Shown: positions 19,537-31,852 of the stretch, piece by piece
Position numbering within the stretch: position 1 is the first letter of the stretch
How the letters are laid out: each line of letters begins with the position of its first letter
DNA from: BD2-11 clade cluster bacterium bin43
GTDB lineage: Bacteria > Gemmatimonadota > Gemmatimonadetes > Longimicrobiales > Gaopeijiaceae
Direction of reading: 5' to 3'
DNA: 64,000 nucleotides
Assembly (NCBI GenBank): GCA_002238605.1
Contig: MPMR01000001.1
Span: forward strand, 124,001-188,000
Notes under the pieces: model-generated
Told to the model about the DNA's origin: nothing
The model's input: the letters and a program-made list of their open reading frames with translations, nothing else
Databases searched by the model: none
Program-made: the position numbers and the translations under genes

Positions 19537-19551
19537 GCCCTTGACCCTGAC

Positions 19552-19799
19552 GTGCCGATCAATCCCGGTTGGGAGAGCGCGCTCGAACGCATCACGCTGA
19601 CGGGTCCGGAAGGCGTGGCCTTTCTGGACCAGGACGACGAGCGCCGAATCACCGTGGTCACCGCGAGCCCAGGATCGGACGCTTGCGCGCGATTCTGCGG
19701 GACTGGGAGGGGGCGCTGCCGGACATGCTCCGGGACGCGGCCGGGCTGGCAGTGAGCATGATGCGCGGGCTCAAAGAAGCGGTGCGGCTGCGGAGGTAG
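19552..19799 (+). pseudogene. Possible frameshifted small gene
   Basis: A frame beginning with GTG at 19552 encodes protein-like sequence (INPGWESALERITLTGPEGV, then RRITVVTASPGSD) up to about 19680. There it degrades into Cys/Gly/Arg-rich low-quality sequence. From about 19677 another frame encodes LRAILRDWEGALPDMLRD and ends at TAG 19799 with an amphipathic helix and basic tail. A single change of frame around 19670-19690 would join the two halves into an 82-residue protein. No homopolymer marks the spot, so a sequencing error, a decayed gene or two unrelated short frames are all possible. Confidence 0.3.
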
Positions 19800-19855
19800 C
19801 CGTCAACGGGGCGGGGAAAACACCCCGAAAGGTCTCGGCAGGCCGCCCGCGCTCC

Positions 19856-22855
19856 TCAGCCCGTCGCTTCGTAGGCCAGCCGGAACGCGGTGTCCGCCAG
19901 CCACCGCCGGAAGTCCGGGTTGTCGGCGAACAGCTTGAAGAGTTGGGTGTTGTCCTGCACCATCGCCAGCACCGCTCGCTCCGTCGCCTTGTCGGACTCG
20001 ACGCGGGCGTTCTCCCGGTCGGAGTTCTGCCGCGCGTTCTCGAACCGGGCGTCCTTCGCCACCGAGGCCGGAATGTCCTGCGTGGCCGTCCGGATGACCC
20101 GGTCGGGGTCCCCCCACTCGATTCCGCCGAACAGGTCGTTGAACTCCTCGATGATCACCGACAGCCGGTCGGTCTCGATCTGGCCTTTGCCGCCGCCCTC
20201 TCCCGTCTGGACCGGATCGATCTCCGCGTCCACGTCGTCGAGGATGATCTTCCGCATCCGGTGCTTCTCAACGCGGTAGCTGTCCATGTCGATCCTCTCG
20301 AGGATGCCCTTCGACAGATCGGGCTCCTCGGGCGCCGGCAGCTTCGGGATCAGGAAGTTCAGGAAGATCGAGCGCTCTTCCCAGCCCAGGTTGTTGTAGG
20401 GAAGGATCGAGGAGAGGAACGCGTAGGCGCGCGCGAACGCCTTGGCTCTGCCCTTGAACCGGACCTGGCCGTCCTCGTCCAGATCCCCGAGGTACGTCGC
20501 CACGGACCGGTCGAGGATGGGGTCCAGCCGGCCGCGCTCCGCGCCATCCAGATACAGCTTCACGAACTCGCGGACCTGATCGGTAGAGTAGACCTGCGCC
20601 CCATCAAGGTCGGCCTGTAGGTCGTGGAGCCGGTCGGGGTCGGTCTCATCGGAAAGGACCGTGGTCCGGTAGTAGTCCGAAAAGGCTCTCGTGATGGTCT
20701 CCGCGTCGTTCAGGAAGTCGAGCACGAACACGTCCCGCTTCCCCGGGTGTGACCGGTTGAGCCGCGACAGCGTCTGGACCGCCCTGATCCCCGAAAGCGT
20801 CTTGTCCACGTACATCGTGTGCAGCAGCGGCTCGTCGTAGCCGGTCTGGAACTTGTCCGCGCAGACGAGGAACCGGTGCGGGTCCTTCCGGAATGTCTCG
20901 GCGATCTTCGACGAGGGCAGGCCGTTCAGGCTGGACTCGCTCACCCTGTCTCCGCCGTAGTCGTGCTCGCCCGAGAACGCGACGAGCGCCTCGTGGGGGC
21001 TCCTGCGCTCCTTCAGATAGTCGCGGATGGCGTGGAAGTACTGAATCGCGCGCTCGATCCCGTTCGTGACCACCATCGCCCGCGCCTTGCCGCCGATCCT
21101 GTGCTGCGCCAGCACCTGTTCGTGGAAGTGGTCCACCATGATCTCGGCCTTGAGCCGGATCGCGTGTTCGTGGCCCTCGACGTAGCGCCGGAGCTTCTTC
21201 CCGGCCTTCCGGACATCGTACTCCGGGTCCTCCTCGACCGTCTTGGCAAGCCTGTAGTAGCTCTCGACGGGCGTGTAGTGTTCGAGCACGTCCAGGATGA
21301 ACCCCTCCTGGATCGCCTGCTTCATGCTGTAGGTGTGGAACGGAAGCCGCCTGACCGTGCCGTCGCCCTGCGGGTCCGGCTCGCCGAAGAGTTCGAGCGT
21401 CTTGTTCTTGGGCGTCGCGGTGAACGCGAAGTAGCTGGCGTTGTCGAGCATCCTGCGGCGCTCGATCTCGTCGTTGACGCGGTCCTCATAGGTCTCGTAT
21501 CCGTCCTCGTCACCCCTCTCGCCGAGCGCGTCCGACACGGCTCCGGCGGTCTTGCCGCCTTGGCTCGAATGCGCCTCGTCGATGATGATCGCAAAGGCGC
21601 GGTCGCGGTGCCCACTCCCGATCTCGTCGAGGATGAACGGGAACTTCTGGATCGTCGTGATGATGATCTTCTTGCCCTGCTCGATGAACCGCCTCAGGTC
21701 GCCCGACCGCTCGGCGTGTCCCACCGTCGATCCGACCTGCGCGTACTGCCGGATCGTGTCCCGGATCTGGCGGTCCAGTATCCGGCGGTCCGTAACCACG
21801 ATGATCGAGTCGAAGACGGTCTTGCCGTCCTTTTTCAGGGGGATCAGCTGGTGCGCCAGCCACGCAATCGAGAAACTCTTGCCGCTGCCCGCCGAGTGCT
21901 GGATCAGGTATCGCTTCCCGGCCCCGTGCCTCGCCGCGTCCTCCAGAAGGCGGCGCACCACGTCGAGTTGCTGGTAGCGCGGCCAGATCTGCTTCCGCTT
22001 CTTCCTGCCTGTCTTCGTGTCCTTCTCTGCCAACATCTGGGCGTAGTTCTCGATGATGTCCGTCAAGCGCGTGCGGGCCAGCACCTCGCGCCACAGATAC
22101 TCGGTCTTGAGGCCGTCCGGGTTGGGCGGGTTGCCCGCCCCGTGGTTCCAGCCACGGTTGAACGGTAGGAACCACGAGGACTTGCCCTTCAGGTGTGTGC
22201 AGAAGCGGATCTCGCTCTCATCCACCGCGAAGTGCGCCACGCAGCGCCCGAGCCGGAAGAGCGGCTCCCGTGGGTTGCGGTCCTTCTCGTATTGCCGGAT
22301 GGCGTCGTGGACCGTCTGCTTCGTGAGATTGTTCTTGAGCTCGAACGTGAAGACGGGAAGGCCGTTGATGAACAGCCCGATGTCGAGCGAGCGCTGGGTC
22401 TCGTCCCGGCTGTAGCGTAGCTGGCGTGTGACAGTGAAGCGGTTCAGCGCGAACAGCCGCCGGGCCGTCTCGTTCCCGGCCGACGGGGTGCCGTGAAAGA
22501 GCTCCAGGTGGTGGGGGCCGTGCCTGACGCCGCGCCGGAGTACGTCGATGGTGCCGCGCTTGTTGATCTCGTCTTGCAACCGGGCCAGGAACTTGCGGCG
22601 CGTCGGGCAGTCCTCGGCGAGCCGGAGGGCGGCGGCGGACTCGGGTTGCGTGGCCTCCAGGAACGTCCAGAGTTGGACGAGATCGACGCAGTACTCGCGG
22701 TCGTAGTCGCGACCGCTGCCGGGCGACCAGCCGACGCCGCCGTATCCGGGGGTGGGTTCGCGCACGGTGCGGCCCGAGGGCGGATCGCAGGGGTCGCCGG
22801 TCAGCGCCTCGCAGATCAGGCGTTCGAGGCCGAGTTCGGACATGTCCGTGGTCAT
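19856..22855 (-). CDS. hsdR: Type I restriction enzyme, R (motor/nuclease) subunit
   Basis: 999 residues from the ATG at 22855, one base after the DUF5615 gene. The nuclease motif is intact: D158 ... E172-L-K174 in SLDIGLFINGLPVFTFELK. The motor domain has Walker A HSAGSGKS near 320-327, DEAH at 426-429, FAFTATPKNKTLEL, and later SF2 motifs (FQTGYDEPLLHTMYVDK, LSRLNRSHPGK). Full length and no lesion, so it should translocate and cut DNA together with HsdM and HsdS. Unusually, two small toxin-antitoxin-like genes lie between it and hsdS in the same transcript. Confidence 0.95.
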   Translation of the reverse strand: MTTDMSELGLERLICEALTGDPCDPPSGRTVREPTPGYGGVGWSPGSGRDYDREYCVDLVQLWTFLEATQPESAAALRLAEDCPTRRKFLARLQDEINKRGTIDVLRRGVRHGPHHLELFHGTPSAGNETARRLFALNRFTVTRQLRYSRDETQRSLDIGLFINGLPVFTFELKNNLTKQTVHDAIRQYEKDRNPREPLFRLGRCVAHFAVDESEIRFCTHLKGKSSWFLPFNRGWNHGAGNPPNPDGLKTEYLWREVLARTRLTDIIENYAQMLAEKDTKTGRKKRKQIWPRYQQLDVVRRLLEDAARHGAGKRYLIQHSAGSGKSFSIAWLAHQLIPLKKDGKTVFDSIIVVTDRRILDRQIRDTIRQYAQVGSTVGHAERSGDLRRFIEQGKKIIITTIQKFPFILDEIGSGHRDRAFAIIIDEAHSSQGGKTAGAVSDALGERGDEDGYETYEDRVNDEIERRRMLDNASYFAFTATPKNKTLELFGEPDPQGDGTVRRLPFHTYSMKQAIQEGFILDVLEHYTPVESYYRLAKTVEEDPEYDVRKAGKKLRRYVEGHEHAIRLKAEIMVDHFHEQVLAQHRIGGKARAMVVTNGIERAIQYFHAIRDYLKERRSPHEALVAFSGEHDYGGDRVSESSLNGLPSSKIAETFRKDPHRFLVCADKFQTGYDEPLLHTMYVDKTLSGIRAVQTLSRLNRSHPGKRDVFVLDFLNDAETITRAFSDYYRTTVLSDETDPDRLHDLQADLDGAQVYSTDQVREFVKLYLDGAERGRLDPILDRSVATYLGDLDEDGQVRFKGRAKAFARAYAFLSSILPYNNLGWEERSIFLNFLIPKLPAPEEPDLSKGILERIDMDSYRVEKHRMRKIILDDVDAEIDPVQTGEGGGKGQIETDRLSVIIEEFNDLFGGIEWGDPDRVIRTATQDIPASVAKDARFENARQNSDRENARVESDKATERAVLAMVQDNTQLFKLFADNPDFRRWLADTAFRLAYEATG

Positions 22856-22856
22856 G

Positions 22857-23186
22857 TCAGCCGCGACGTGGTATCGGGACTTCCCTGAGTTCTCCGGGCC
22901 GCGCTTCCTCGACGGCTGTACGGATCTCCGCGGTCCGGAGCCGAACCCTCGGCCATGCCGTGGCCATGAGAACCACGACGGCCAACTTCCTGCCAGCCAG
23001 ATTCTGCTGGTAGCGCATGCTCTGGTCCGTCGTCACGATGACCTTGTACCCTTCCTCTTCGGCTCGCTGGATCAGTTCGCCGTTCTCCAGCAACTCCCAG
23101 CCCCTCTCGGCCGACCTGTCCACCGAATGCTCCCGGAGATGGTGGCGCAGCGGCGCCGGGGTCCCGTGGTCGAACAGGATTTTCAC
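22857..23186 (-). CDS. DUF5615 PIN-like protein (toxin candidate)
   Basis: 109 residues from a GTG at 23186. The sequence begins MKILFDHGTPAPLRHHLREH and continues with ELIQRAEEEGYKVIVTTDQSM, the pattern of the DUF5615 PIN-like family: an early Asp, a D/E-rich second motif and TTD for the third acidic position. In other genomes it is paired with a DUF433 protein as a putative toxin-antitoxin module. Here it follows its DUF433 partner with a 3-bp gap and precedes hsdR with a 1-bp gap, so it is inside the restriction operon. Nuclease activity is predicted from fold only. Confidence 0.85.
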   Translation of the reverse strand: MKILFDHGTPAPLRHHLREHSVDRSAERGWELLENGELIQRAEEEGYKVIVTTDQSMRYQQNLAGRKLAVVVLMATAWPRVRLRTAEIRTAVEEARPGELREVPIPRRG

Positions 23187-23189
23187 GGG

Positions 23190-23411
23190 TCAGGCGGGCG
23201 TCTTGAAGTATTCCGTCTCGTGCTTGAGAACCGCCGTCACCTGCCACTCCTTGACCTCGGGAAACCACTCCAGGAACTGCTCCACGGTAGCGCCGCTCTC
23301 CAGGTTCTCGAAAAGGGCGTAGACCGGCACCCTCGTGCCGGTGAAGGCCCACGCCCCGCTGATCTTACGGGGGTTGCGTTCAACCGCCGGGCACGTGTTC
23401 CAATCCGTCAT
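23190..23411 (-). CDS. DUF433 antitoxin-like protein
   Basis: 73 residues from the ATG at 23411, with AAGGAGG nine bases upstream. The core ISGAWAFTGTRVPVYALFENL and the ending FLEWFPEVKEWQVTAVL are the DUF433 pattern, a winged helix-turn-helix-like domain of VapB-type partners. Its start overlaps the hsdS stop by 4 bp and its stop lies 3 bp before the DUF5615 gene, so both appear translationally coupled within the hsd operon. It may bind the PIN-like partner, and autoregulation is possible. A direct operator was not found. Confidence 0.85.
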   Translation of the reverse strand: MTDWNTCPAVERNPRKISGAWAFTGTRVPVYALFENLESGATVEQFLEWFPEVKEWQVTAVLKHETEYFKTPA

Positions 23412-24832
23412 GCGCTTGCCTCCTTCATCATGTCGTGCGCGGTTGAATGTAGGTTCGATTCGGTGGGGATGGGGTCGGCCCGGTCGGGGTCGGCCGCGAG
23501 CGGGTCCGTCTCGGGTAGCTTAGTCGCCGCCTCGCGCACATCCAGCTTGCCGGTCACGGCATCGGCGATCAGGCGGGTGCGGTATTCCTGGAGGAGGGCG
23601 ATCTGCCGATGTGTTGCGTCCCGCAGCTTTCCGAGCAGGGACAATCGGCGCTCAATCCATCGCACCAACTCGCGCTGCTCGCCCCGGGACGGCAACAGAA
23701 TCGGATAGTTTCGCACATCGTCCAGTGATAACCCGTCCTTCGTGCCGCCGTACAGCCGCGTTTGACCATAGGTCTGGCCCAGCGACGAGAGAAGCACGTA
23801 CCCGAGCCACTTGGAGGCGACCGCAGGGGACGGTCTACAGCGCGCCACATGTTGGCTCACATAAGCTTCTCCCAATCCTTCCGGGGCGACTCCCACCGAT
23901 CCGATATAGGCTGTTACCGAAAGCAGTAGATCACCTTCGGCGATCCGCGTTCGGGCTGCTTCAGAGGTTACTGGCAGATTGAGTCGCACAGCATCTTCCA
24001 ACCGCAACTCAAGTGAGCCACGACTCAGGTTGGCGACGCGCACGAACAGAGGTCCGCCGTCCGCAGCATATGATGACCAGCCCCGAGAACCCGTCGTCAC
24101 CTCGGACACGACGTTCCTCAATCGACATCGCACCCAATGATTCGGGATCGCTGGGAGCCATGCGACGCCGGAGTCCTTGTAGGCCGGATAGGGCTGGCCG
24201 GTTCGGACATCGATCCGCCCCGTGACTGCCTCGTGGATCAGCGCCCGCTTCCGCTCCTCCAATAGCTCGATCAGCCGCTCTTTCGCCCGGATGTAGCGCC
24301 GGATCCGGCGGTCGGCGGCTTCCAGAAAGCGGACGATCGCGGCTTGTTCAGGGCACGGCGGTATCAAGAACGGAATCTCGCGCATCCGAGGTGCTGATAA
24401 GTCCCACTGGCCCACCCGGACACCATCGGAAGCTGCCGAAAAACAGGGCACACAGGCACGAGATCTTATGGCGAGGTGAAAGTAGCGTCCAACTACACCC
24501 TTGACGGCGTAGACATGGTAGGCTGGGCTGACGATACCGTCCCACTGGGACACCCCATATGATCCCTGCCACGCCTTCATCTTGTTGATCGCAAACTGCC
24601 CTTTTCGAACTACCTTGTAGTGCGACAAGTCGTCTGGGATATAGTTGTGGTTCCCGCTTTGATCGGTGAGGTCGCGAAGGACCACGCCCTTGTCGCGCAC
24701 GACCGAGAGTAGGGGGAGGTCAGGTCGGTTTCGCTCGGCCACTTTCCGCAATACGGTCCTCAGCCGACGCACTTCCCAGTGGACCGGCACTTCCTCGAAC
24801 CACTCAAGGGCGGTCACGCTCACAAATGCCAC
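23408..24832 (-). CDS. hsdS: Type I restriction enzyme, specificity subunit
   Basis: 474 residues from a GTG at 24832, with GAAGGACAG immediately upstream. Two target-recognition domains are arranged tandemly. Each begins after a WxxLP-type segment (VPVHWEVRRLRTVL near residue 15, AWLPAIPNHWVRCRLRNVV near 235) and is followed by a long helical spacer (ERLIELLEERKRALIHEAV; REQRELVRWIERRL). The conserved motif GQPYPAYKDSGVAWLP joins the halves. It pairs with HsdM for methylation and with HsdR for cutting, and would read an asymmetric bipartite sequence that cannot be deduced here. The gene begins inside the end of the Cys-rich gene (13-bp overlap). Confidence 0.93.
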   Translation of the reverse strand: MAFVSVTALEWFEEVPVHWEVRRLRTVLRKVAERNRPDLPLLSVVRDKGVVLRDLTDQSGNHNYIPDDLSHYKVVRKGQFAINKMKAWQGSYGVSQWDGIVSPAYHVYAVKGVVGRYFHLAIRSRACVPCFSAASDGVRVGQWDLSAPRMREIPFLIPPCPEQAAIVRFLEAADRRIRRYIRAKERLIELLEERKRALIHEAVTGRIDVRTGQPYPAYKDSGVAWLPAIPNHWVRCRLRNVVSEVTTGSRGWSSYAADGGPLFVRVANLSRGSLELRLEDAVRLNLPVTSEAARTRIAEGDLLLSVTAYIGSVGVAPEGLGEAYVSQHVARCRPSPAVASKWLGYVLLSSLGQTYGQTRLYGGTKDGLSLDDVRNYPILLPSRGEQRELVRWIERRLSLLGKLRDATHRQIALLQEYRTRLIADAVTGKLDVREAATKLPETDPLAADPDRADPIPTESNLHSTAHDMMKEASA

Positions 24833-25344
24833 CTGTCCTTCAGCAGGATCATCGTGTCAAATGCCGCGAGCTTCGCAGCATCTATCGTGGGATGGACTCT
24901 CCTCGACGGGACAACCCTCGGGTCTTCATCGGATCGTTCGGTGATGCGCCCACCCCACCCTCCCAGGACCCGATAGATGACGATGTTCATGCCGTCAGTG
25001 TTAAGGAAATGATTCCCCTTCGCGGAGATGCGCCATTTTCTGGAGAGCCAGTTTCGCCGTCTCCGAGTAGCGTTCTTGAGTTGGCCCTCGCGTGTCTTGG
25101 CCGCATCCGGGTTGATTTCCATTCGTGACGCACAAACGCATCCGGTGTCGAGTTCGAGTCCATAGACAGGGTGGATCATGTGGTGTACGTATCTGATCTC
25201 TCTGTACTCGCACATCTCGCACGTTTCCAGGCAGCAGCTGCAACCGCTGTCGCGACAGCATACGTCCGTTACCCCGTCGCAGAACCAGCCCTTCTTGGGG
25301 AACTTCGGATTGCCCCACTTTCCACTACCTCGATTCGCGCTCAA
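24820..25344 (-). CDS. Cys-rich, probable zinc-binding protein inside the hsd operon
   Basis: 174 residues from a TTG at 25344 (TTGA overlap with the hsdM stop). The first 75 residues hold ten cysteines, including C42-x2-C45 and C69-x-C71 with H54/H55/H58 between, a likely zinc site. The core ETCEMCEYREIRYVHHMIHP is followed by RRRRNWLSRKWRISAKGNHF, where a basic patch precedes an aromatic/Gly-rich half. I recognise related hypothetical proteins near restriction loci but no named function. Basic charge and placement between hsdM and hsdS suggest a DNA-binding accessory or anti-phage-escape factor. That is inference only. Confidence 0.75.
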   Translation of the reverse strand: MSANRGSGKWGNPKFPKKGWFCDGVTDVCCRDSGCSCCLETCEMCEYREIRYVHHMIHPVYGLELDTGCVCASRMEINPDAAKTREGQLKNATRRRRNWLSRKWRISAKGNHFLNTDGMNIVIYRVLGGWGGRITERSDEDPRVVPSRRVHPTIDAAKLAAFDTMILLKDRWHL

Positions 25345-27512
25345 GGACCCGTTTCCTCTCGTTGGGTCAAATGATCTGAAGTCATACCGAGAATCTGCGC
25401 CAGCAACCCCTCAGTCTTCCGCTCCACCGCCAGAATGTCGTCCCCGATCTCATCGAGCGTCCGCATCGGCTCGGGCTTGTGGAAGTAGCGGTTGAAGCTG
25501 ATCTCGTAGCCGATCTTGACGCTCTTCGCGACGTACCACGCGTCCCCGGTGTAGGGGAGCACTTCGCTCCGCAGGAACCCCTCGATTCCGCCCGCTTCCG
25601 TGAGCGGGATCTGCTCGGTGTCCCTGAGCGCCGAATCAGGTTCGTACTCGACGACGCGATCTTTCGAGCCGTCGCGAGACTCGTACAGCCCCCGGATCGG
25701 GTCGGGCGCGGTGCCTTGCCGGTGGACTCTCTTGACTACCCGCTCCGCCTTCTCGTCCCGCTCGGCGAGCGCGGTCTGCAACAGCCTCTTGCGCTTGGCC
25801 GTGAGCTTCGCGCGACGACCGGACATGTCGGCCTTGAGCGCGCCCAGAAAGCCGTTGAAGTCGAGGTGAGCCCCGGGACCGAGTGTCTCGGCCACCCGCT
25901 CGACGGCGTTCGCGAGCGCCTCCTCCCCGGCACCACGACACGCCTCGGAGAACCCGGCGCAGCGCTCGGGCGACAGATCCACCTTCAGCCTCAGCGGCCG
26001 CTCGACCGTCACCTTCCAGTACCCGAACGCCTCGTTGTCGAAGACCCGGCTCTCCTCCGTCTCCTCGAAGTCGAGGAACGTCCGGCAGATCCGCTTGATG
26101 TCCTCCGGCCCGAGTTCGCAGTTCTTCTTCCCCAGGTTCTTCCTGAGCGGACGGAACCACTTGGTCGCGTCGATCAGCTGCACCTTGCCGCGCCGGTGCT
26201 CGGGCTTGCGGTTCGTGAGCACCCAGACGTAGGTGGCGATGCCGGTGTTGTAGAACATGTTGAGTGGCAGGGCGACGATGGCCTCCAGCCAGTCGCTCTC
26301 GATGATCCACCGCCGGATGTTGCTCTCGCCCTGCCCCGCCGAGCCGGTGAACAGCGAGCTTCCGTTGTGGACCTCGGCGATCCGGCTGCCGAGCCGCGTG
26401 TCCCGCTTCATCTTCGACAGCTTGTTGGCCAGGAAGAGCAGTTGGCCGTCGCTGGAGCGGGTGACGAGCGAGTACTCGGGGTCGCCCGCGTGCTCGATCA
26501 GGAAGCGGTGATCGTTCATCCCCTTCTTGCCGCCCATCCGCTGGAGGTCGGTCTTCCAACTCTTTCCGTACGGCGGGTTCGAGAGCATGAAGTCGAACTC
26601 GCGGGTCGGAAACGCGTCGTTCGAGAGCGTCGAGTGCTCCGGGCCGCCCACGATGTTGTCGGCGGCCTCGCCCTCGCCCTTGAGGAGAAGGTCGGCCTTG
26701 CATATCGCGTAGGTCTCGGCGTTGATCTCCTGCCCGTACAGGTGCGAGGATACCTGCTTCCCGCGCTTCTCCGCGAGCCGGTGCAACTCCTCCTCCGCCA
26801 CGGTCAACATGCCGCCGGTCCCACAGGCCCCGTCGTAGAGCAGGTAGGTGCCGGACTCGATCCGGGCGGCGATGGGCTGGAATACGAGCTTCGCCATGAG
26901 CGTCACGGCGTCGCGCGGGGTGAAGTGCTCGCCCGCCTCCTCGTTGTTCTCCTCGTTGAAGCGCCGGATCAGTTCCTCGAAGACGGTCCCCATGCCGTGG
27001 TTGTCGAGGCCGGGGTGCCGGACCGAGCCGCCCGTGTCCATCACCGGATCGGGACCCAGGTTGATGTCCGGCGAGGTCAGCTTCTCGATCAGGGACCCGA
27101 GCGCGTCGGCCCTGTCGAGGCGCGGGATCTGGTTCCGGAACTCGAAATTGTCGAGGATGTCCTGCACGTTGGGCGAGAATCCGTCGAGGTAGTCCACGAA
27201 GTCGGCCCTGAGTTGCTGCCTTCCGGCCCGCGCCCGGAGGTCGCTGAGCGTGAACTCCGAGGTGTTGTGGAAGGCCTGCCCGGCCGCCTGCCGGAGCGCG
27301 GCGTCCTGGTTCGTAACCCCGGCGGCGTCCAGCGTGGCCTTCATGTCGAGCACGGCCTGCTTGGTGGGTTCCAGTACCGCGTCGAGCCGCCTAAGCACGG
27401 TCATGGGGAGGATCACATCGCGGTACTTGCCGCGCACGTAGACATCGCGGAGCACATCGTCCGCGATACCCCAGATGTAGTTGGCGATCCAGTTCAGGTT
27501 GGGTGCGGTCAT
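25341..27512 (-). CDS. hsdM: Type I restriction enzyme, methyltransferase subunit
   Basis: 723 residues from the ATG at 27512 (MTAPNLNWIANYIWG). An in-frame ATG at 27674, with GAGGAA just upstream, would add a 54-residue leader unlike known HsdM. Methyltransferase motifs are intact: D227-GACGTGG (motif I, AdoMet) and NPPYG at 312-316 (motif IV, N6-adenine). Before these is the HsdM helical N-domain with HFTPRDAVTLMAKL. It heads the operon hsdM - Cys-rich gene - hsdS - DUF433 - DUF5615 - hsdR. Every junction overlaps or is separated by no more than 3 bp. Confidence 0.94.
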   Translation of the reverse strand: MTAPNLNWIANYIWGIADDVLRDVYVRGKYRDVILPMTVLRRLDAVLEPTKQAVLDMKATLDAAGVTNQDAALRQAAGQAFHNTSEFTLSDLRARAGRQQLRADFVDYLDGFSPNVQDILDNFEFRNQIPRLDRADALGSLIEKLTSPDINLGPDPVMDTGGSVRHPGLDNHGMGTVFEELIRRFNEENNEEAGEHFTPRDAVTLMAKLVFQPIAARIESGTYLLYDGACGTGGMLTVAEEELHRLAEKRGKQVSSHLYGQEINAETYAICKADLLLKGEGEAADNIVGGPEHSTLSNDAFPTREFDFMLSNPPYGKSWKTDLQRMGGKKGMNDHRFLIEHAGDPEYSLVTRSSDGQLLFLANKLSKMKRDTRLGSRIAEVHNGSSLFTGSAGQGESNIRRWIIESDWLEAIVALPLNMFYNTGIATYVWVLTNRKPEHRRGKVQLIDATKWFRPLRKNLGKKNCELGPEDIKRICRTFLDFEETEESRVFDNEAFGYWKVTVERPLRLKVDLSPERCAGFSEACRGAGEEALANAVERVAETLGPGAHLDFNGFLGALKADMSGRRAKLTAKRKRLLQTALAERDEKAERVVKRVHRQGTAPDPIRGLYESRDGSKDRVVEYEPDSALRDTEQIPLTEAGGIEGFLRSEVLPYTGDAWYVAKSVKIGYEISFNRYFHKPEPMRTLDEIGDDILAVERKTEGLLAQILGMTSDHLTQREETGP

Positions 27513-28170
27513 GTCGTGGCGTCGTGGGCTGCTCTCGGTAGGGTGCGGTCTTTCGCGCGGGAACTCATCTACGATAACGTACCGGCCACGGAGCGGCTCT
27601 AGTAGCGCGAGCGAGCGTTTCACCGGCCCGGCGACCTGGGTCGCCCCGGTGTTGTCAACGGCCATCGTTGACATGATTCCTCAAGTCATGAATCTCGGCG
27701 TCTCCCGTTCGATGGCGGCGCGCCGGATTCGCGGTCGCGGTGCTGTCCGGCTCAGCGCCGCGTCACAGGACCGGAACCACCCTCGGCCGCCCGCACCACG
27801 GCGGACGGGGAACCACTACGCGTGGCCCTCGACGCGTTCTCGCGCCCGTCAGCTCCAGCGCCGCCGACGACCCCGCGTCGCCGGGGTTCGGCACGCATGT
27901 CGGATACGAGGCGGATCTGCTCACCGCGCTGGAAGCCATGAGTCGAACATGACTCTCATTCGAGCGCACCCCCGTGAGGCACTTGGCTGCTCACCTCGTC
28001 GCCGGACATCGATGTCGCGGGCGGGGGCGCGCGGCCATTAGGGACGGCGGCTGACGGGGCGATAGCTTCGAGAGCCGCTTGGTGTGTTGTCCTCATCGGG
28101 CGCTATTCACATCTTTCGCATCCGGTTCTTCCTACCCTCCAAAGGGTGCCCATCAGCACCATTGACCGAC
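27513..28170 (+). other. Divergent intergenic region between the hsd operon and the kinase gene
   Basis: 658 bp holding both promoters. The minus-strand frame from 27674 to 27513 is an alternative HsdM leader. No full operator or repeat was recognised. Short frames in this stretch (for example one ending VGYEADLLTALEAMSRT at 27952) look like gene fragments or chance. No transposase or integrase remnant was seen. Confidence 0.4.
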
Positions 28171-29604
28171 ATGCTAGGGTTCCAGCGACCGCAGGTGCTA
28201 CGTCTCCGCCGACGTTGGTCTGTCGGGGAACAGGTGGGCTCCGGTGGGTTTGGCCGAGTCCATGTGGTTGAATCGGACGGCGTCGCTCACCATGTTGCCA
28301 AGTTCATTCCGAAGGATCCGGGCGCTGACCGAGAGCTTCTGTTCCCTGAACTCTCGGGTATCCGGAATGTGGTACCGGTCGTAGATACCGGAGAATCGGA
28401 CGCCTACTGGATCATCGTCATGCCAAGGGCCGAGATGTCCTTGGCGGACCTCCTATCCGAAACGGGAGGCCCATTGCCCGAAGTCCAAGCGACCCCGATC
28501 CTTCTCGATCTTGCGCGGGCCCTGGCATCCATGAAGAACCGCGTCGTGCACCGTGACGTCAAGCCGGCCAACATTCTCTTCCTCAATGGTACTTGGTGTC
28601 TGGCGGATTTCGGGATTTCCCGCTACGCCGAGGAAACCACCGCCGAGAATACGCGGAAGTTTGCCTGGACCCCTCAGTACGCGGCACCGGAACAGTGGCG
28701 CAGCGAAAGGGCGACCAGCTCGACCGATGTATACGCGTTCGGCGGCGTAGCGTACCATCTCTTGGGGGGTAGTCCTCCATTCGTCGGGCCGGAGTCCCAT
28801 GACTATCGGAAGCAACACCTGCACGACACGCCTGCCCGGATCCCAAACATCGCCCCCGAAATGGTCTCTCTCGTAGACGAGTGCCTCACAAAGGCCCCGG
28901 AAGCGCGACCGAATCCCGAGAGCATCCTATTCAGGCTGGAGCAAGCACACCGACCGCGAACTGAAGCCGCACGTAGGCTTCAGGAAGCCAATTCCCGAGT
29001 AGTTCGAAAGCACGTAGAGCGAGCCAGTGTCGAGTCGGCAGCCCAGTCCGAGCGAGAGCGCAAGCATCGGTTGAGGGAAGCCGCTGAGAAGTCCCTTACG
29101 CGAATTGTGACGATGCTCGACGACCAGATTCGGAGTTTGGCGTCAGCGAGCGCCGCCGGCAGGCCGAGAGCGGACGGGTGGCAGGCCAGGTTAGGTAGGG
29201 CAACCCTCGGTGTCGCGGCTGTTTCTCGGGCGGACGCAGTGTTCGCGCCTCGCGGTGATCTCAAGTGGGAAGCCCTCGCATACTCGTCCATCACGTTGCG
29301 CACTCCCCGCGACCGGTATGGACATGAAGGGATGGCTCATTCTCTATGGTATCTCCGACAGAGGAAGGACGACGCTTATCGGTGGTACGAAGTGGCGTTC
29401 AAGGTCAATGCGCTGGTCCCGCGCCGAAGCCCCATCGACCCTTTCGCCCTCCCCCCGGGAAGCGATGATGCGCAGTTCGCGCTTTCGTCGACCATGCACA
29501 CGATTGACGTGGCAAAGCATCCAGTTCCGATCGACCAAGGAGCAGAGGAGAAGTTCGTTGACCAGTGGATTCGCCGTCTTGCAGACGCTGTAACCGGTGC
29601 CTGA
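28171..29604 (+). CDS. Ser/Thr protein kinase with unrecognised C-terminal domain
   Basis: 477 residues from the ATG at 28171, close to the natural N-terminus of the kinase domain. An upstream in-frame GTG (28084) is possible, and neither has a good Shine-Dalgarno. The kinase domain is complete: glycine loop GSGGFGRV (23-30), Lys44 in HVAKFIPK, HRDVKPAN (127-134), DFG at 146-148 and APEQW. It is predicted to be active. Charged helical sequence follows at residues about 260-330 (a coiled coil is plausible), then a folded 120-residue domain with WYLRQRKDDAYRWYEVAF and IDVAKHPVPIDQG that I cannot assign. No membrane segment. Not a PASTA kinase. The gene sits between the restriction operon and the HEPN gene. 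Confidence 0.88.
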   Translation: MLGFQRPQVLRLRRRWSVGEQVGSGGFGRVHVVESDGVAHHVAKFIPKDPGADRELLFPELSGIRNVVPVVDTGESDAYWIIVMPRAEMSLADLLSETGGPLPEVQATPILLDLARALASMKNRVVHRDVKPANILFLNGTWCLADFGISRYAEETTAENTRKFAWTPQYAAPEQWRSERATSSTDVYAFGGVAYHLLGGSPPFVGPESHDYRKQHLHDTPARIPNIAPEMVSLVDECLTKAPEARPNPESILFRLEQAHRPRTEAARRLQEANSRVVRKHVERASVESAAQSERERKHRLREAAEKSLTRIVTMLDDQIRSLASASAAGRPRADGWQARLGRATLGVAAVSRADAVFAPRGDLKWEALAYSSITLRTPRDRYGHEGMAHSLWYLRQRKDDAYRWYEVAFKVNALVPRRSPIDPFALPPGSDDAQFALSSTMHTIDVAKHPVPIDQGAEEKFVDQWIRRLADAVTGA

Positions 29605-29697
29605 GGAGAGAGCGAACTGCGACGTACCCCCATCTGGCTCGCCGGTCCAGGTGGGATCGTCCTACATGGCGGGAGGACCCGTTGCGATGCCCGGCAT

Positions 29698-29812
29698 TTC
29701 CCGCCAAATTTGGCAATCCTGTCCGCTATCGGGACACGGTCCAGCCGGGTCCAGCCCAACGGCAGAAAGCGCAGATCGTGCAGTCCTGTAATACTTTAGA
29801 CGATTTTCTGCC
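29698..29812 (+). repeat. Structured direct repeat, copy 1 (3' of kinase gene)
   Basis: A 115-bp unit, alignable without gaps to 30864-30978. The 3' 52 nt (29761-29812) are an inverted-repeat hairpin: outer stem GGCAGAAA/TTTCTGCC (8 bp), a six-base 5' bulge GCGCAG, inner stem ATCGT/ACGAT, and a 20-nt loop with a further AGT/ACT pairing. About 41 of these 52 bases match copy 2. The 5' part keeps TTCCCGCCA and CCGCTAT at equal spacing, and has a perfect GCCAAATTTGGC palindrome (29703-29714). Two outer-stem positions differ between copies, and both partners change with them. It begins 94 bp after the kinase stop. Confidence 0.8.
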
Positions 29813-30054
29813 GGGATTCGGGCTGCCTAGAAATCCGCCGGTCCGGGAGTGCGAGACCAAGGACCGAAAGCTGCTGGCACCCCGACTGTCCCGACTCCTC
29901 GATGGCAACCCCAGAACCGCTAGCATAGAACCCTGATCGCCACCGACTGCCTGGATCACACCAGCAAGGCGGTCCATTCATCTGCTTCGCCGGGTCACCG
30001 GCGAGGCTTGCCGGGGGGTCCCGACTTCCGTGCGCTGAGGAGAGGAAAACCGTC

Positions 30055-30822
30055 ATGTCGGACAAGACGAGACAGAAATACGTCGACAAGCTGGGACCTG
30101 AGCGCGGCCAGATGCTCGATGCCATACACGAGGAATGGACAATGGCTCTTGATCGCTACCAAGAGCTGATGGAACTGTTCGGTAAGGATGAGAAGCGAGT
30201 AGCCATGCTCAACGCGCTCGGAGCTGCGTTCGTCGGCGACCTTCAAGAGGTCCTGTCGAACGACCTGATTCTCAGGCTGACCCGGCTAACGGATACGGAC
30301 AAGCGTACCGTATCGGTCCATCACTTGCCGCGATTCCTTCGCAACCATCCCCACCTCGAAAAGGAGGTGGAAAAGCATGTGTCCGAAGCGAAAAAGCACG
30401 CGAAATCGGCCAGGGATCGGAGGAACCATCGTATCGCGCACCGAGACAGGTGGCAGCCAGGAAGACCGGTTAGGTACGGAGATCTCAAGGCGGGGTTGGA
30501 TTCTGTGTACGCCGCTCTGAACGTCGTGGAAATGGGCTTCTGGAATAACCACCTGATGAACGAAGTCAGCAATGAGATGAGAACCGCGCAGTTCGTGGGA
30601 TGTCTCGAATCGCTGGTCGAAGCCGTGCTCTTCATCGAATCCAAGATAGATCCGACGGGCGAGACCAGGTCATTTGACCGTGATGTCGCGATAGCGTTTC
30701 TGGCGAAGATCGGAGGGGACGCGGACCAAGACTTGGGAGCCATCTGGAACCTCAGAATGACCGCAGGGATCATTAGAGAGCGACTCAAGCCAAGTGTCTC
30801 CGAAGGAGGGGGCGAGATTTGA
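30055..30822 (+). CDS. HEPN (AbiU2-like) protein
   Basis: 255 residues from the ATG at 30055, with GAGGAGAGG at 30037-30045. It is mostly alpha-helical. The catalytic HEPN motif R-x(4-6)-H is present as R123-NHRIA-H129 in RRNHRIAHRD, followed by Asp131 and a W/R patch. Preceding helices contain RDRRNH and KHAKSAR. Organisation and the RxxxxxH-D context match the AbiU2/HEPN family of putative RNases, toxins or abortive-infection factors. No partner antitoxin (MNT nucleotidyltransferase) is adjacent. The flanking hairpin repeats might supply regulation. RNase activity is predicted, not shown. Confidence 0.8.
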   Translation: MSDKTRQKYVDKLGPERGQMLDAIHEEWTMALDRYQELMELFGKDEKRVAMLNALGAAFVGDLQEVLSNDLILRLTRLTDTDKRTVSVHHLPRFLRNHPHLEKEVEKHVSEAKKHAKSARDRRNHRIAHRDRWQPGRPVRYGDLKAGLDSVYAALNVVEMGFWNNHLMNEVSNEMRTAQFVGCLESLVEAVLFIESKIDPTGETRSFDRDVAIAFLAKIGGDADQDLGAIWNLRMTAGIIRERLKPSVSEGGGEI

Positions 30823-30863
30823 GCCGGGGGAAGTGAGACGGGAGGCTGAACCGGAACGGGAGA

Positions 30864-30978
30864 TTCCCGCCATTCTGGTACGATTCTCCCGCTATTCTGT
30901 GCGGATGGGATTAGCCATCCCCCACCGGCAAGAAGCGCAGATCGTGCAGTCCCAGTTGACTTTGGACGATTTCTTGCC
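30864..30978 (+). repeat. Structured direct repeat, copy 2 (3' of HEPN gene)
   Basis: 115-bp partner of 29698-29812. The hairpin 30927-30978 has outer stem GGCAAGAA/TTCTTGCC, bulge GCGCAG, inner stem ATCGT/ACGAT and a 20-nt loop with an AGTC/GACT third helix. Relative to copy 1 the fifth pair is A-T instead of G-C and the sixth is G-C instead of A-T, so both changes are compensatory. It starts 42 bp after the HEPN stop and ends 16 bp before the -35 of the TipA-like gene. It could be an RNA element in the 3' end of the HEPN transcript or a DNA recombination/insertion site. Confidence 0.8.
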
Positions 30979-30994
30979 TTGATTCACTCCCCCC

Positions 30995-31025
30995 TTGACC
31001 CTGACGTAACGTCAGGGTTTACCTT
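30995..31025 (+). promoter_or_regulatory. MerR-type promoter with perfect palindromic operator
   Basis: TTGACC (-35) at 30995-31000 and TACCTT (-10-like) at 31020-31025 are separated by 19 bp, the long spacer expected of MerR-family promoters. Inside lies a perfect 21-bp palindrome (30998-31018): half-site ACCCTGACGT, central A at 31008, then its exact complement. The predicted transcript would begin at or next to the ATG at 31032, making it leaderless. The promoter is likely autoregulated by the TipA-like product. Confidence 0.72.
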
Positions 31026-31031
31026 CCGTCC

Positions 31032-31852
31032 ATGAACACCGGAAAACCACCGACAGCAGGCGATTCGTCCGCCGAGGAACTCCACACCGTAGGCGAGGTT
31101 GCGCATCTGGCCAAGGTCACCGTGCGCACCCTCCACCACTACGACCGCATCGGGCTGCTGGTCCCGTCGCGACGGGCCAAGAACGGCTACCGGCTCTACG
31201 GCTACGCGGACCTGGAGCGACTCCGGCAAATCCTGCTCCTGCGCGAGTTGGGGTTCGGGCTCGACGGCATCGGGCAGATGCTGGACGCGGGGGCGTTCGA
31301 CCAGCGCCGCGCGCTCGTCGCGCAGCGCGACCTGTTGCGCGAGCGGCAGCGGAGGACGGAAAGAATCATCGCGGGCGTGGAGGGCGCGCTCGAGGCGATG
31401 GAGGAGAAGAGACCGATGGCGAAGGCAAGGATGTTCGAGGGGTTGCAGGACTTCGACCACGAGCAGTACGAGGACGAGGCCCGCGAGCGCTGGGGCCGGA
31501 CGGACGCCTACAAGGAGTCCATGCGGCGCACACGGCGCTATTCGAAGGACGACTGGACGCGCATCAAGGCCGAGGCGGAGGACGTGATGGCCCGCCTCTC
31601 CGCGCTACTGGAGGAGGGAGGCCCCGCCGCGGGCAGGGGGGGGGGGGGACGCGGGAGCTGGCGGAGGAGCACCGCTGCCACATCGACCGCTGGTTCTACC
31701 CGTGCAGCCACGCCATGCACGCGGGCCTGGCCGACATGTACACGGCGGATCCGCGATTCATGGAGCACTTCGAGAAGCGCGGAGAAGGGCTGGCGGCGTT
31801 CTTCCGGGAGGCGATCCTGGCGAATTCGGCGCGACGGAGAAACGCCCCGTAA
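31032..31852 (+). pseudogene. TipA-like MerR-family regulator, frame broken in a poly-G tract
   Basis: The N-terminus is a classic MerR domain (HTVGEVAHLAKVTVRTLHHYD, IGLLVPSRR, GYRLYGYADLERL), followed by the helical dimerisation segment and a TipAS-like effector domain (RARMFEGLQDFDHEQY, KESMRRTRRYSKDDWTRIKAE). The reading frame is lost in a run of 13 G (31636-31648). The remaining TipAS sequence (RELAEEHRCHIDRWFYPCS, then LADMYTADPRFMEHFEKR) continues in another frame to TAA at 31850-31852. The 821-bp span needs one more G, or two fewer, to be intact (about 273 residues). This may be phase variation, a sequencing error or real inactivation. The family senses thiopeptide-like or other hydrophobic drugs. 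Confidence 0.82.
31636..31648 (+). repeat. Homopolymer tract of 13 G
   Basis: Uninterrupted G13 inside the effector domain coding region of the TipA-like regulator. Such runs are hypermutable by slipped-strand mispairing and are also prone to sequencing or assembly error. Changing its length by +1 or -2 restores the downstream frame. Confidence 0.95.

Follow-up and report, generated by a model that had tools for sequence, protein, structure and literature searches.

A conserved hairpin at the right ends of an integrative-element family of Gemmatimonadota, possibly antisense to the integrase leader

The repeat that occurs twice in the 64,000-nucleotide stretch of DNA analysed here (the window) constitutes the right end (attR side) conserved in a family of tyrosine-recombinase integrative elements. 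Its hairpin shares a 16-mer with the leader of the integrase gene (int) at the far end of the element. Judging from sequence comparisons, we give roughly even odds (a probability of about 0.5) to the hairpin being a retroregulator similar to lambda sib, which would be antisense to the ribosome-binding region of int and would reach the int transcript through the joined ends of the element.

Right ends in the window and architecture of the element

The first-pass annotation had described two gap-free units of 115 bp (29698-29812 and 30864-30978), and both are present as described, with 68/115 positions identical overall; identity is 25/60 across the first 60 bases and 42/54 across the hairpin. 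The inner stem ATCGT/ACGAT was recovered in both copies, as were the compensatory changes, with two outer-stem pairs (G-C to A-T and A-T to G-C) switched on both sides. The outer arms are CGGCAGAAA/TTTCTGCCG in copy 1 and CGGCAAGAA/TTCTTGCC-T in copy 2, where the outermost pair is broken (C x T). Across the family, the right-end unit is about 140 nt long and consists of TCCCGCC-type repeats, the hairpin with a nearly invariant AGATCGTGCAG, and then about 20 nt to the neighbouring sequence. The features of the window are the following.

19538 to 19553, plus strand: left 16-bp direct repeat CCCTTGACCCTGACGT flanking the island (comparison with genome G003)
19554 to 30991, no strand: island missing from G003, with type I restriction-modification genes, kinase, copy 1, HEPN and copy 2
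28171 to 29604, plus strand: Ser/Thr kinase gene (PF00069; best PADLOC match mad6), cargo
29698 to 29845, plus strand: copy 1, element right end, with TCCCGCC arm-like repeat (from 29698), hairpin, spacer and putative core (family alignment)
29760 to 29813, no strand: hairpin 1, 54 nt, the bottom strand of which would be int-sense in the circular element (sequence, covariation, strand comparison)
29771 to 29786, plus strand: 16-mer GCAGATCGTGCAGTCC in hairpin 1, identical to the motif preceding the int start codon elsewhere
29839 to 29845: putative 7-bp core CGGTCCG of copy 1, its spacing taken from elements with both ends known
30055 to 30822, plus strand: HEPN/AbiU2 gene (PF18734), cargo
30864 to 31011, plus strand: copy 2, element right end, extending to the core CGTAACG (31005-31011) within the merR palindrome
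30926 to 30979, no strand: hairpin 2, 54 nt, without the outermost pair (sequence)
30937 to 30952, plus strand: 16-mer GCAGATCGTGCAGTCC in hairpin 2
30992 to 31007, plus strand: right 16-bp direct repeat CCCTTGACCCTGACGT flanking the island (comparison with G003)
30999 to 31017, plus strand: target palindrome CCCTGACGTAACGTCAGGG (attB) before a MerR/TipAS-type gene (MerR by Pfam)

No integrase was found in the window island, which holds right ends only, and both copies appear to be right-end remnants of decayed integrative elements. Two further observations concern the genes of this region: a small DUF5615/PIN-like gene (22857-23186) lies between the genes for the type I restriction-modification subunits, and a long G run (31636-31648) lies in the MerR/TipAS-type gene, where the TipAS match is partial and a frameshift or assembly error is possible.

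The mobile unit can be seen in a filled and an empty site. Genome G010 carries a 10.5-kb insertion at the merR palindrome next to gyrB, which is absent from G003, with flanks 99.3-99.8% identical; the same site is also empty in G007. The empty site of G003, CCCTGACGTAACGTCAGGG, reads CCCTGA-CGTAACG-TCAGGG, with the 7-bp core CGTAACG inside the palindrome. This core is common to both ends in G010 (attL, CCCTGACGTAACG adjoining GCGG; attR, ATCCGC adjoining CGTAACGTCAGGG) and is present once in the empty site. In copy 2 of the window, the bases immediately preceding the core agree with the left half of the target and its TTGACC box (30986-31017), so the merR promoter region is retained there, unlike in G010.

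At the left end of the element lies int, encoding a tyrosine recombinase of about 387 aa (PF00589) and reading outward; the catalytic R, K, HxxR, W and Y are kept in 36 int members. The hairpin lies on the opposite strand, about 22-23 bp inside the right crossover. The earlier suggestion of a recombination site therefore stands in so far as a DNA site is found this close to a tyrosine-recombinase crossover, but not in its form of a moving gene-plus-hairpin cassette, because what moves is an entire element, about 5-42 kb long, that encodes its integrase at the far end. Int scores 17.6 against the integron integrase profile (cut-off 265) and the crossover falls outside the hairpin, in agreement with the original exclusion of integron attC. 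An attC-like cassette array was also rejected, given the inconsistent orientation of neighbouring genes and the 10.5-kb unit of the filled/empty pair, and a REP/RAYT link is unlikely given the association with a tyrosine recombinase.

This arrangement recurs in the complete genomes G039 and G040, where all of the assignable int/hairpin pairs (8/8) lie at opposite ends and on opposite strands. Four of them have common cores at both ends (GGGCTGGC, GGGCCGGC, CGTGCCCAGC and GCTGGCCCAGC), a fifth with a common core is inserted in the other orientation into a target of the first kind, and another uses tRNA-Pro, with the left end restoring the tRNA. Three hairpin copies are found within 7 kb of G040 (20073-27100, locus L331), possibly as stacked insertions. 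Arm-like TCCCGCY repeats are present at both element ends, and Pfam gave no match to the N-terminal part of Int; the complex group of tyrosine recombinases is characterized by an N-terminal arm-binding domain and arm-type repeats (PMC8138268).

Besides the merR palindrome, targets include tRNA anticodon loops and other palindromes. When 181 unique right ends were assigned to target classes by simple patterns, 27 adjoined tRNA halves (in either orientation), 16 MerR-type palindromes, 21 a GGCGCCGGGCYGGC repeat and 9 TGCCA-N-TGGCA palindromes, with 108 left unclassified. Palindromes of the CTGCCAAAATGGCAG type (L103, L111, L324, L018 and L020) are frequent targets, often repeated nearby, and resemble regulator operators; a repeat containing GGCGCCGGGCYGGCAAGGCGC serves as target in both orientations (L318, L319, L326 and L328). 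One element encloses a complete Zorya type I set, ZorA-D (L328, 450-13200).

Hairpin pairing and the motif shared with the int leader

The covariation first claimed from the two window copies holds for the family. Our main set comprised 75 hairpin copies, selected without a motif pattern, and nine outer pairs; Watson-Crick cells number 572/675 in this set, against a shuffle mean of 522 and maximum of 542 (2000 shuffles), and double-change cells number 38, against a mean of 12.7 and maximum of 23, these shuffle counts not being probabilities because the copies are related by descent. A separate control on 44 copies gave 24 double-change cells against a mean of 9.7 (0/500), and 0-9 in slid versions. 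One outer pair, which forms the strongest coupled column pair in a larger set, occurs as G-C, A-T, C-G and T-A. These comparisons show that the outer stem is maintained through compensatory changes. When six of the outer pairs are considered, one or more non-Watson-Crick cells occur in about half of the copies. The inner stem is conserved without double changes, and its 5' side belongs to the nearly invariant 16-mer; the small third helix in the loop, part of the first-pass structure, shows no covariation across the family.

Comparisons of the two strands modestly favour the bottom strand. On the top strand, non-pairing cells of the outer stem are A-C/C-A in 56 cases versus G-T/T-G in 19, an excess that would correspond to G-U if the RNA were made from the bottom strand. 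RNAalifold predicts the outer stem for the bottom strand only and misses it on the top, and forced-structure energies favour the bottom strand (p ~0.007). The preference is modest, since part of what it reflects is conservation of the 5' half, which has other causes.

Of 41 extracted leaders, 40 have the 16-mer GCAGATCGTGCAGTCC, either identical or carrying 1-4 changes, at a distance of about 20-25 nt ahead of int and directly before a GAGG-type ribosome-binding sequence. The possibility that it is a coding part of an upstream-extended Int was rejected, as the reading frame differs between copies. A variant 17-mer with four substitutions, GAGGGATCGTGCGGTCC, occurs six times in the window's own genome, in four hairpins and two int leaders, and is absent from the other ten related genomes. 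As this subfamily has the same four substitutions at both sites, the 16-mers of leader and hairpin co-evolve. On contig C32, some 41 kb separate the variant leader from the hairpin, and a 45-bp identical repeat is present at both the int end and the hairpin end, as would be expected for attL and attR of one element. Individual positions differ between the two places: A27 is changed to G in 12/40 leaders and 4/75 hairpins, and T29 to C in 20/75 hairpins and 0/40 leaders. With either change, pairing of the leader with a bottom-strand RNA would be retained as G-U. Three example leader/hairpin duplexes gave energies of -44 to -48 kcal/mol.

Proposed control of int and alternative readings

With int pointing outward at the left end, the bottom strand of the hairpin would be int-sense once the ends are joined. 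In the excised circle the right end would thus come to lie downstream of int, and transcription of int would cross attP and copy the hairpin on its int-sense (bottom) strand. The 3' end of the int RNA would then fold, its loop, inner stem and bulge being complementary to the 16 nt upstream of the int ribosome-binding site, and synthesis of Int would be lowered, either from the circle in cis or from other copies in trans. Integration would separate int from the hairpin and so relieve the control in cis. In the circle of G010, 154 nt would separate the stop codon of int from the complement of the 16-mer, and a search of the region around that stop and the core revealed no terminator-like site. 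Neither a sigma-70-like promoter near the left end nor an antisense promoter could be identified, so the hairpin may be untranscribed while integrated. The full proposal, a recombination-gated antisense RNA switch that senses whether an element is free or inserted, and in which the shared 16-mer lets dozens of copies restrain each other, we put forward tentatively, at somewhat less than even odds.

Retroregulation by lambda sib involves RNase III processing and lowered expression of int. The geometry found here is of the same type as lambda int-attP-sib, with an int-sense hairpin beyond the crossover, downstream of int across attP, that would be present on int RNA only with the ends joined and is separated from int by integration; unlike sib, the hairpin also holds a 16-nt complement of the int leader, and the element is not a phage. 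RNA-OUT of IS10 is a stem-loop complementary to the leader of the recombinase gene, next to its ribosome-binding site, and acts on other copies. The complement to a recombinase leader near the ribosome-binding site (16 nt, 40 leaders) is a feature in common with RNA-OUT/RNA-IN, whereas IS10 has a DDE transposase and the hairpin here sits at the far end of a tyrosine-recombinase element, with no promoter of its own found. Control of an integrase gene tied to att-site sequences, as predicted here, is also known for intS of KplE1, where the proteins Int and TorI bind to the promoter DNA at attL (PMC2951348; sib is mentioned there and in PMC6379469); in contrast to intS, the common sequence here lies next to the start codon and in the far-end hairpin.

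The KplE1 case leads to the main rival of the retroregulator, which remains strong and which we consider a serious possibility, although clearly short of even. Int, an excisionase or a repressor would bind the 16-mer and its surrounding dyad as duplex DNA; the copy at the right end would build the intasome, and the copy before int would serve as an operator for negative autoregulation. Concerted changes in the 16-mer would be expected equally if one protein bound both sites as DNA, and there are documented cases of an integrase repressing its own gene (PMC2951348). Arm-like repeats at both ends place the hairpin in a position that corresponds to the accessory sites of lambda-type elements; the 16-mer hardly varies and is not a palindrome, and by inspection the int leaders have no hairpin in common. 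Binding of one protein should nevertheless leave the same variants at both places, yet A27G is mostly a change of leaders and T29C of hairpins only. The true swaps of the outer stem, among all four Watson-Crick combinations, are likewise as for base pairing, and the 16-mer was not seen among the left-end sequences inspected.

Two other readings carry less weight. That the right-end strand folds as single-stranded DNA and is used like integron attC, CTX attP or a transfer origin would fit a covarying stem beside the crossover and a relaxase-domain gene, but that gene was found in one element only (L327), with few cargo proteins scanned, and in the filled/empty pair integration followed the ordinary course, leaving the core at each end and clear of the hairpin. 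As this reading also leaves the matching motif before int unexplained, we regard it as improbable. Both window copies lie just downstream of a HEPN or kinase gene, and the first-pass annotation had offered a structured RNA linked to the HEPN protein, or a 3' module of defence-gene transcripts. Elsewhere the genes flanking the copies vary and stand in both orientations, and the HEPN gene is found in only 1/11 genomes of the genus, being missing from ten relatives that do have hairpins; the bracketing of the HEPN gene is thus incidental, and a hairpin serving HEPN or kinase genes as toxin-linked RNA or transcript module, unsupported in either form, is very improbable indeed.

Distribution and relation to other mobile elements

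In the window's own genome 40 matches were obtained, the majority covering the whole hairpin and some only the 16-mer that precedes integrase genes; int itself has about 30 matches there. Hairpin copies were found in 10/10 genomes of the same genus, and among 28 other genomes one has a single match. With about 30-40 copies in its own genome and others throughout the genus, chance or assembly duplication is excluded as the origin of the window pair. Metagenome-assembled genomes labelled Gammaproteobacteria by NCBI have 12-52 int matches each; a spread across phyla was considered and rejected, as these are mislabelled relatives with gyrB 94-95% identical to that of the window. Among them, G041, G042, G043 and G047 (loci L070, L094, L099 and L106) are by gyrB Gemmatimonadota of the window's genus, and their coordinates suggest identity with G008, G010, G007 and G001. 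The other matches outside this phylum (two Chloroflexi/Chloroflexota and two Bryobacterales) come from contigs only 4.8-8.9 kb long and were also set aside, since they may be misbinned. The hosts are Gemmatimonadota. Some matches are labelled Candidatus Palauibacter, a genus of Palauibacterales (PMC10469786), and many of the source samples appear from their isolate names to be sponge metagenomes.

The family resembles integrative and conjugative elements (ICEs), IMEs and tyrosine-integrase genomic islands in its attL/attR core, tRNA targets, empty sites, arm-like repeats and defence cargo, and differs from them in its dozens of related copies per genome, its many palindromic targets and the conserved hairpin/leader motif. 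Strand-biased circularizing integrative elements carry an intA-tfp-intB-srap operon and leave no empty site on moving (PMC10214605); they likewise have a tyrosine recombinase, a circular form and a palindromic joint, whereas two recombinases with Tfp and Srap stand against one int at the end here, and the open reading frames of the G010 element include a single int at its end with no second recombinase found. A covariance-model search of Rfam gave no plausible match to the hairpin, int had no match in phage and plasmid collections, and NCBIfam and PDB searches returned distant relatives only, or nothing. No description of the element family was found in the literature searched, a body of text in which subscription journals are mostly missing.

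In sponge-associated Gemmatimonadota this family of integrative elements, some of which carry defence genes, is very abundant, and the integrase copies in one genome can number up to tens. The element ends provide an exact handle to delimit mobile defence islands. If the RNA reading of the hairpin is true, it would represent a new coupling of integrase synthesis to insertion state and copy number.
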